Source of the DNA: Haloplanus rubicundus
GTDB taxonomy: Archaea; Halobacteriota; Halobacteria; Halobacteriales; Haloferacaceae
Length of the DNA: 64,000 nt
Reading direction: 5' to 3'
Assembly: GCF_003342675.1 (NCBI RefSeq)
Contig: NZ_CP031148.1
Span: 2,728,001 to 2,792,000, forward strand
The first letter of the stretch is position 1; each line of letters starts with the position of its first letter. Below the pieces are notes generated by a model. The model saw only the letters and a program-made list of their open reading frames with translations, made no database searches and was not told where the DNA came from. The position numbers and the translations under genes were made by a program. Below are positions 6,531-57,176 of the stretch, one piece after another.

Positions 6531-6550
6531 GCCGTGCCGACCACCAACGC

Positions 6551-6557
6551 GTATTAG
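6551..6557 (+). promoter_or_regulatory. TATA-like element for the tRNA-like RNA
   Basis: GTATTAG is centred about 29 bases upstream of the predicted RNA 5' end at 6583, the usual spacing for haloarchaeal tRNA promoters. It is the only AT-rich patch in this GC-rich spacer. Confidence 0.5.
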
Positions 6558-6582
6558 TGACTCGTCGGCGTACGAGCGAGGT

Positions 6583-6718
6583 GGAAGGGTGGCTCAGTGG
6601 TAGAGCGTTCTCGCCGGTCGCCGGCCTCCGCGTCGACGCGGACCGGGTAGCCGGCGAGGGAGTCGACCGATTCTCGGTCGGCACACGGCTTCGCGTGGTT
6701 CGAATCCCGCCCCTTCCA
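6583..6718 (+). ncRNA. tRNA-like RNA with no recognisable anticodon arm (tRNA pseudogene or novel structured RNA)
   Basis: Has a perfect 7-bp acceptor stem (GGAAGGG 6583-6589 with CCCTTCC 6711-6717, discriminator A 6718), a normal D arm (GCTC-AGTGGTA-GAGC, 6592-6606) and a T-loop TTCGAAT (6699-6705). The T-stem is not intact: CGTGG faces CCCGC. Where the 17-nt anticodon arm should be there is a long hairpin (6608-6617 with 6651-6660, apical CCGCG/CGCGG), then a perfect 9-bp hairpin (6662-6670 with 6674-6682). No T33-anticodon can be placed, and I found no bulge-helix-bulge that would splice to a normal tRNA. Total 136 nt. Either a decayed or interrupted tRNA, or a tRNA mimic. Confidence 0.6.
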
Positions 6719-56237: not shown

Positions 56238-57176
56238 ATGCAGGTGTCGGTCGTCGTCTGTACGTACGCGATGGAGCGATACGAGGCGTTCACCGAGGCC
56301 GTCGAGAGCGTCCTCGCACAGACGCACGAGCCGCTGGAAGTCGTCCTCGTCGTCGACGGAAACCCGGACGTGTACGACCGGGTGCAGGCGGACTTCTGTG
56401 GCCGCGAGAACGTCGTCTGTCACTGCAACGAGGAGAATCGCGGCATCTCTTACTCCCGGACCAAGGGCGCCGAACTCGCCTCCGGCGACATCGTCGCGAT
56501 GCTCGACGACGACGCCGTCGCCGAACCGGACTGGATCGAACGCCTGGTCGACGTCTACGAGGACACCGACGCCGTCGCCGTCGGCGGCGACGTGCGCCCC
56601 GACTGGCAGACCGAGCGCCCCGACTTCTTCCCCGCGGAGTTCTACTGGCTCGTCGGCTGCGTCGAACCCGGGTTCGCCGAGGACGGCGAGGAGGTCCGGA
56701 ACACGTACGGCTCGAACATCTCCTACCGTCGCGAGGCGTTTCTCGCGGTCGGTGGCTACGACCCGAACACGGGTCGGAAGGGCGACAAACACCTCCAGGC
56801 CCACGAGGCCCCCGTCGGGATTCGACTCCTCGAGGAGTACGGCAGAGGGATGGTGTTCACCGAGGACGCCATCGTTCACCACAAGCTGTTCGACTACCGT
56901 GGGGACTTCCAGTGGCTCGTCTTCCGATCGTTCTGGCAGGGCTACTCGAAGCGCGTGATGGACCTGCTGTATCCGGACGCCCCGGACGACAAGGGTGCGT
57001 ATCTCCGTCAGCTGTTGACCTACTTCGTCCCGGGGCGGCTCCGGCGCCTGATCAGGTCACCGTCGACCATCGAGGCGAAGCAGGTACTCTCGATTTTCGT
57101 GTTCACCGCCGCCGTCGGGCTCGGCTACCTCTACGCGATGCTGACGCCGAACGTCGTCGAGAAGGCTAACGCGTAG
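56238..57176 (+). CDS. GT2-family glycosyltransferase (AglG/AglI-like)
   Basis: A 312-aa enzyme with a GT-A fold: MQVSVVVCTYAMERYEAF at the start, VVLVVDGNPDVYDR, GAELASGDIVAMLDDDAVAEPDWI (the DDD metal site), and SNISYRREAFLAVGGYD. A C-terminal hydrophobic segment (about 280-302) anchors it to the membrane. The resemblance to Haloferax AglG/AglI, which add uronic acids to the dolichol-linked glycan, fits with the UDP-glucose dehydrogenase at 40.8 kb. Divergent from aglB, sharing a 130-bp spacer; TATA GCTTATTC at 56206-56213. The last 11 bases overlap the convergent GT4 gene. Confidence 0.92.
   Translation: MQVSVVVCTYAMERYEAFTEAVESVLAQTHEPLEVVLVVDGNPDVYDRVQADFCGRENVVCHCNEENRGISYSRTKGAELASGDIVAMLDDDAVAEPDWIERLVDVYEDTDAVAVGGDVRPDWQTERPDFFPAEFYWLVGCVEPGFAEDGEEVRNTYGSNISYRREAFLAVGGYDPNTGRKGDKHLQAHEAPVGIRLLEEYGRGMVFTEDAIVHHKLFDYRGDFQWLVFRSFWQGYSKRVMDLLYPDAPDDKGAYLRQLLTYFVPGRLRRLIRSPSTIEAKQVLSIFVFTAAVGLGYLYAMLTPNVVEKANA

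Follow-up and report, generated by a model that had tools for sequence, protein, structure and literature searches.

A conserved tRNA-like RNA without an anticodon arm in Haloplanus rubicundus and other Halobacteria

In a stretch of the Haloplanus rubicundus genome (contig NZ_CP031148.1, positions 2,728,001 to 2,792,000; this whole stretch of 64,000 nucleotides is referred to as the window), a segment of 136 nt begins and ends like a tRNA gene and appears to have no anticodon arm in between. The question raised by this locus is whether it represents a tRNA remnant, a decoding tRNA whose anticodon is hidden by an intron, or a separate type of RNA that keeps part of the tRNA fold for another purpose. 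Here, we examined its structure, its relatives in Halobacteria and its genomic setting, and it is very probable that the locus is a conserved functional tRNA-like RNA.

Structure of the RNA and search for an anticodon

The RNA (Table 1) is arranged as GGAAGGG, T, G, the D arm, 86 nt, the T arm, CCCTTCC and A. Most elements proposed in the initial annotation were confirmed, including a perfect 7-bp acceptor stem (GGAAGGG/CCCTTCC plus A73), a canonical D arm (GCTC-AGTGGTA-GAGC), the T loop TTCGAAT, and two stable hairpins instead of an anticodon arm. The minimum free energy (MFE) of the 136-nt RNA was -75.2 kcal/mol, versus -61.2 +/- 3.9 kcal/mol for shuffled sequences (z -3.6). Extension of the acceptor stem to 8 bp is impossible, as U8 and C65 do not pair. 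On the other hand, the T stem had been considered mismatched, with a CACG/CGTG hairpin formed instead, which proved to be wrong: the stem has five pairs and one bulged U, GCG(U)GG/CCCGC, a single-base bulge is kept in all 95 relatives compared, and the CACG/CGTG hairpin is not conserved. The same bulged stem (GCG/CGC and GG/CC) was also picked by RNAalifold from the alignment of the host genus.

Table 1. Features of the predicted RNA gene and its surroundings in the window.
Feature	Position	Strand	Remarks
Promoter segment GCGTATTAGTGACTCGTCGGCGTAC, with TATA-like TATTAG at 6552-6557 (-31 to -26)	6549-6573	+	Conserved across the genus
tRNA-like non-coding RNA gene (predicted), 136 nt	6583-6718	+	Single copy in the host genome
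Acceptor stem, 5' strand, GGAAGGG	6583-6589	+	Invariant in 95 relatives except for one A3 to G change
D arm, GCTC AGTGGTA GAGC, with A14, G15, G18, G19 and A21	6592-6606	+	Tertiary-contact bases in 94-95 of 95 relatives
Hairpin H1, in the place of the anticodon arm	6608-6660	+	MFE fold; two-sided changes at 6 of 13 pairs within the genus
Hairpin H2, 9 bp, extra arm at the variable-arm position	6662-6682	+	Smaller or absent in many relatives
Linker ACACGGCTTC	6683-6692	+	GGCTTC almost constant; final C (C48) invariant
T arm, GCG(U)GG - TTCGAAT - CCCGC	6693-6710	+	Bulged U at 6696; stem strands of 6 nt and 5 nt in 95 of 95
Acceptor stem, 3' strand, CCCTTCC	6711-6717	+	Invariant except for one base in one relative
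Discriminator base A73	6718	+	Relatives: A 45, G 49, C 1; CCA not encoded
DUF7563 gene (PF24444), 52 aa	6727-6885	-	Convergent with the RNA, 8 nt past its 3' end

The locus was called neither by ARAGORN nor by Rfam at the gathering score. When the host genome was searched with the Rfam tRNA model (RF00005) at E<=0.1, 45 tRNAs were matched and the locus was not among them; none of the 45 has the acceptor stem GGAAGGG/CCCTTCC. Neither ARAGORN nor Rfam reported a tmRNA with a tag-peptide frame. Thus, the host copy has been passed over by tRNA finders and Rfam alike, which leaves an annotation gap. Elsewhere in the window, ARAGORN called a 94-nt tRNA-Ala on the reverse strand (56520-56613), but its sequence is not tRNA-like and is unmatched by the Rfam tRNA model; it is probably a false positive.

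The anatomy of the family was based on 95 distinct full-length members. These were used to examine whether the RNA might be a decoding tRNA in which splicing of an unusual intron leaves a normal anticodon, a reading that we consider very improbable, even though haloarchaea do carry anticodon-loop introns and 4 of the 45 host tRNAs are of intron length. Position 33, counted from the D arm, is U in 26 of the 95 members, which is close to chance, and 32 different triplets occupy positions 34-36; in addition, the length of the middle region ranges between 28 and 93 nt, with hairpin loops of mostly 3-5 nt. A standard anticodon arm (5 bp, 7-nt loop, U33) was present in 2 of 95 members versus 40 of the 45 ordinary host tRNAs. 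An ordinary tRNA set is already present in the host; tRNA-Trp is missing from the 45, presumably owing to its long intron. No bulge-helix-bulge motif was found in the MFE folds of the 95 members, but the same search also missed the 4 intron-containing host tRNAs, and our argument against an intron therefore rests on the U33 and triplet statistics. With no conserved U33, no constant triplet and no standard arm, the original statement that no anticodon can be fitted holds, and splicing to a normal anticodon, which had been named as a refuting outcome, finds no support in these counts. Comparison of the members shows that a freely varying hairpin takes the place of the anticodon arm, and an RNA of this predicted fold cannot decode.

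Conservation and covariation in Halobacteria

By DNA search, the RNA was present in 11 of the 12 genomes of the host genus. A covariance model (R1) gave matches in 64 of 148 host-family genomes and in 180 of 391 sampled Halobacteria genomes, and a broader model (R2) in 198 of the 391, covering 48 of 86 genera and six families; these model-based values are lower bounds, as the strict filters drop weak matches (in one genome, G009, the RNA was found by DNA search and not by R2). Absence from related strains had been named as an outcome that would speak against the proposal, and the opposite was observed, with about half of the sampled Halobacteria carrying the RNA. Copies were also found in Halorussus and Salinadaptatus, and, as far as the names could be inferred, Halegenticoccus tardaugens and Halorientalis sp. 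IM1011 are among the carriers. One genus (g28), with the RNA in at least 13 of its sampled genomes, was taken as Haloferax; a 2-kb fragment of a plasmid from Haloferax gibbonsii matched one of its genomes at 92% over the entire length.

In the phylum-wide search, the weak matches outside Halobacteria that were inspected were ordinary tRNA-Ser or tRNA-Ala. Several low-scoring R1 matches (L063, L067, L068 and L069) were rejected as ordinary tRNAs, tRNA pairs or chance, and a pattern scan of contigs with a gap of 0-2 also matched ordinary bacterial tRNAs and was mostly noise. Two groups of more distant haloarchaeal tRNA-like RNAs were noticed, one with GAAAGGG and no T-stem bulge (L051:5048-5132, L065:5013-5100 and L085:5730-5817) and the other with GGTAGGG and the bulge (L052:5013-5110, L053:4985-5082 and L054:5045-5137); both have long variable arms and odd anticodon arms.

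Twelve bases (U8, A14, G15, G18, G19, A21, C48, U54, U55, C56, A58 and C61), which build the tRNA L-shape, are each retained in 94-95 of the 95 members. Variation in the acceptor stem is limited to single changes in one genome, and A3:U70 is present in 94 of 95. The T stem always has six bases facing five (GCGUGG/CCCGC in 75, GUGGCG/CCCAC in 18 and GUGUGG/CCCAC in 2 members) and shows a clean compensatory swap from C-G to U-A. Within the host genus, the ends of the RNA are 96-98% identical, compared with 66% for the promoter segment, 28% for the upstream flank and 38% for the downstream flank.

The middle region differs in form among lineages. The host genus has a long form with an extra 9-bp hairpin, the Haloferacaceae relatives (84-101 nt) mostly have one hairpin and most of them lack a variable arm, and Natrialbaceae-type, f6 and plasmid copies have two, one of them variable-arm-like. 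The discriminator base is G73 in 49 of the 95 members and A73 in the host copy, and the variable-arm-like hairpin also differs by clade. One genome (G029) has three family copies on three contigs (L055, L056 and L057), two of which are of the variable-arm form with G73.

In spite of this variability, the middle region is predicted to be folded (mean z -2.9 versus shuffled sequences; 97% of the 95 members below -1). Covariance analysis across related genomes, which had been recommended as a check, gave a clear result in the host-genus alignment: both sides of a pair had changed in 15 cells, versus 5.1 +/- 2.2 in shuffles, exceeding all 500 of them, and sliding the pairing partners abolished the signal. 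Taken together, these sequence comparisons show that selection holds the upper tRNA half and the bulged T stem and allows the decoding half to vary.

Three identities had been offered at first, namely tRNA mimic, regulatory RNA and tRNA remnant. The last can be dropped, whereas mimic and regulator are both compatible with the sequence. A decaying tRNA pseudogene would be without an anticodon and would be passed over by tRNA finders, as this locus is, but the class-wide conservation, covariation, invariant core and retained promoter contradict it, and it is the least probable of all the explanations considered here; the initial argument against simple decay is well supported by the same four observations. 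A trans-acting small RNA, with loops that pair with mRNAs and a tRNA body that serves as a scaffold, possibly bound to the ribosome like rancRNA_s194, has a precedent in H. volcanii, in which a 97-nt intergenic RNA attaches to the 50S subunit and controls a single mRNA (PMC6104027). However, selection acts on the tRNA body, and conservation is lowest in the loops and hairpins, which differ across genera and even species; this reading is rather unlikely.

Identity with rancRNA_s194 itself was also considered, on account of its length of 97 nt and C-rich 3' end. That RNA is intergenic and has its own TATA box (PMC6104027); its locus is HVO_2011s2, and conservation outside Haloferax was reported to be lacking (PMC3956466), with no copy in any other haloarchaeal genome. 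Its described locus and conservation pattern set it apart from an RNA that is class-wide and located behind sdhA, and identity was rejected. Another small RNA, H225.2R (96 nt, conserved in 19 genomes), is probably different, as its locus is HVO_1727s2 and not the site behind sdhA. In the H. volcanii genome paper, the RNAs listed are limited to RNase P, 7S RNA, tRNAs, rRNAs and one C/D RNA.

Promoter and genomic setting

A TATA element at tRNA spacing had been noticed upstream of the RNA and could be verified: TATTAG (Table 1) lies at the same place as in host tRNA genes. Among the 95 members, an AT-rich box (78-94% A+T) is located at -30 to -27, and shuffled upstream sequence has no such peak; the position of the box is the same in 30 ordinary host tRNA genes. 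At the level of sequence, a putative tRNA-type promoter belonging to the RNA gene itself is thus shown.

The gene is located directly behind sdhCDBA in the majority of Haloferacaceae and in members of f3, f4, f7 and f9 (the SdhA family was found in 38 loci), and this site is therefore probably the ancestral location. The site behind sdhA is empty in 16 Haloferacaceae genomes without a convincing R1 match. The host locus differs, with the RNA between a 7TM histidine kinase gene and the DUF7563 gene. A DUF7563-like gene appears to lie directly behind sdhA in two genomes in which no RNA was found there (L415 and L425). No protein gene consistently accompanies the RNA; its neighbours are housekeeping genes and offer no functional clue. 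Since it is absent from many genera, the RNA is dispensable, which, like the lack of an accompanying protein gene, weighs against the role favoured below. Some variable-arm copies with G73 are near glycosyltransferase or orc1/cdc6 genes.

Extra copies in relatives are on plasmids or small contigs, and tRNA genes are att sites in haloviruses (PMC8707807). Both facts would be expected if the locus were a DNA attachment site for integrating elements and not an RNA gene. Nevertheless, no second or partial DNA copy was found in the host genome, the compensatory changes show selection on RNA pairing, and the synteny behind sdhA is stable; this explanation is hardly more credible than that of a pseudogene. 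The tRNA-like attP of haloviruses was also considered and is a different thing.

Possible role and comparison with known systems

The best overall explanation is a stand-alone non-decoding tRNA mimic of Halobacteria acting by the mechanism outlined here, to which we give slightly less than even confidence. From its layout, the RNA may have originated from a tRNA whose variable arm was long. Trimming by RNase P and tRNase Z and addition of CCA, as in tRNA, are probable because the features read by these enzymes are intact, and the upper half (acceptor stem and D/T elbow) should fold as tRNA. EF-Tu/EF1A grips the T stem, and the one-base bulge therefore probably keeps the RNA off aEF1A; certain phage tRNAs described below, which share the bulge, would point in the same direction if they are initiators. 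Most probably, and as the most economical function, the mimic would occupy a partner that binds the upper tRNA half, be it the large ribosomal subunit or an enzyme that matures or charges tRNAs, and thereby tune tRNA supply or translation; this mechanism is slightly more tentative than the overall explanation.

A pattern search of viral contigs (IMG/VR) for the bulged T arm matched phage tRNAs with a CAT anticodon (L448:1223-1297, L449:4066-4140 and L443:3041-3116), which have the same one-base bulge as the haloarchaeal RNA. These are possibly initiators, in which case their bulge fits exclusion from the elongation factor. The same bulged T stem occurs in viral tRNA-like RNAs of 129-130 nt missed by ARAGORN (L455:561-690, L446:8306-8435 and L450:6328-6456), in which the loop between the stem halves GGAGT and ACTCC starts with CTGTA and which may be phage tRNA-Tyr enlarged by an insert of about 55 nt. 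Two further tRNA-like RNAs of 125-126 nt (L445:6234-6358 and L457:2024-2149) are in phage tRNA clusters; they also have a bulged T stem and are not called by ARAGORN.

The anticodon is not read by SerRS. A seryl acceptor without an anticodon, recognized by this enzyme via a long variable arm and G73 and donating its amino acid outside the ribosome, would explain the variable-arm-like hairpin and G73 of several clades and plasmid copies (L048, L057, L059, L099-L101 and L111-L119); the weak matches outside the class also include tRNA-Ser. However, A73 is found in the host genus and many relatives, the variable arm is missing from most Haloferacaceae, and no partner enzyme gene is linked. We regard this reading as unlikely, albeit somewhat less so than the trans-acting small RNA. 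More generally, a single common charging enzyme is doubtful, since the discriminator base and the variable arm differ between clades.

With regard to the non-decoding mimic that we favour, examples of stand-alone tRNA mimics exist in bacteria, eukaryotes and viruses, and to our knowledge no conserved archaeal family of anticodon-less tRNA mimics has been recognized. We found no earlier description of this family in the main text of the freely readable papers searched, and it is possible that the Haloferax copy is already listed as an anonymous sRNA or tRNA-like element. That the RNAs constitute an undescribed class-wide archaeal family, anticodon-less, matured as tRNA, excluded from elongation by the bulge and regulating tRNA enzymes or the ribosome, is proposed as tentatively as the mechanism itself. 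As the carriers include Haloferax, in which deletion and RNA work are routine, the role of a non-decoding archaeal tRNA is directly testable.

The RNA resembles type II tRNAs (tRNA-Ser/Leu) in its acceptor stem, D arm, T loop and tertiary-contact bases, as well as in the variable-arm-like hairpin of some clades. Unlike canonical tRNAs, it has no anticodon arm or conserved U33, and its T stem is bulged (95 of 95) instead of a plain 5 bp. Hoelzle and colleagues reportedly described 47 tRNA-like elements. A tRNA-like element (t-element) is located upstream of 5S rRNA in Haloferax, and further tRNA-like elements are the subject of Hoelzle et al. 2012 (cited in PMC4326828). The t-element shares a tRNA-like structure in haloarachaea with our RNA, whereas the RNA studied here has its own promoter, adjoins sdhA and not 5S, and forms a class-wide family, although the Haloferax copy could be among the elements of Hoelzle et al. 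2012. The selC* tRNA-Cys and irregular allo-tRNAs are bacterial and have 8-bp (or 9-bp) acceptor stems and an anticodon; one such odd tRNA-like RNA has a T-stem bulge at 51a, and some irregular allo-tRNAs are unusable in translation (PMC7609411). Our RNA shares with them the T-stem bulge and differs in being archaeal, with a 7-bp acceptor stem, a bulged 5-bp T stem and no anticodon. Its likeness to tmRNA lies in an upper tRNA half without an anticodon arm; in contrast to tmRNA, it lacks G3:U70, has a full D stem and no called tag frame, and is far too short. We know of no tmRNA in archaea. If our proposal is true, anticodon-less mimics would play in archaea a part that bacteria give to tmRNA-like RNAs.
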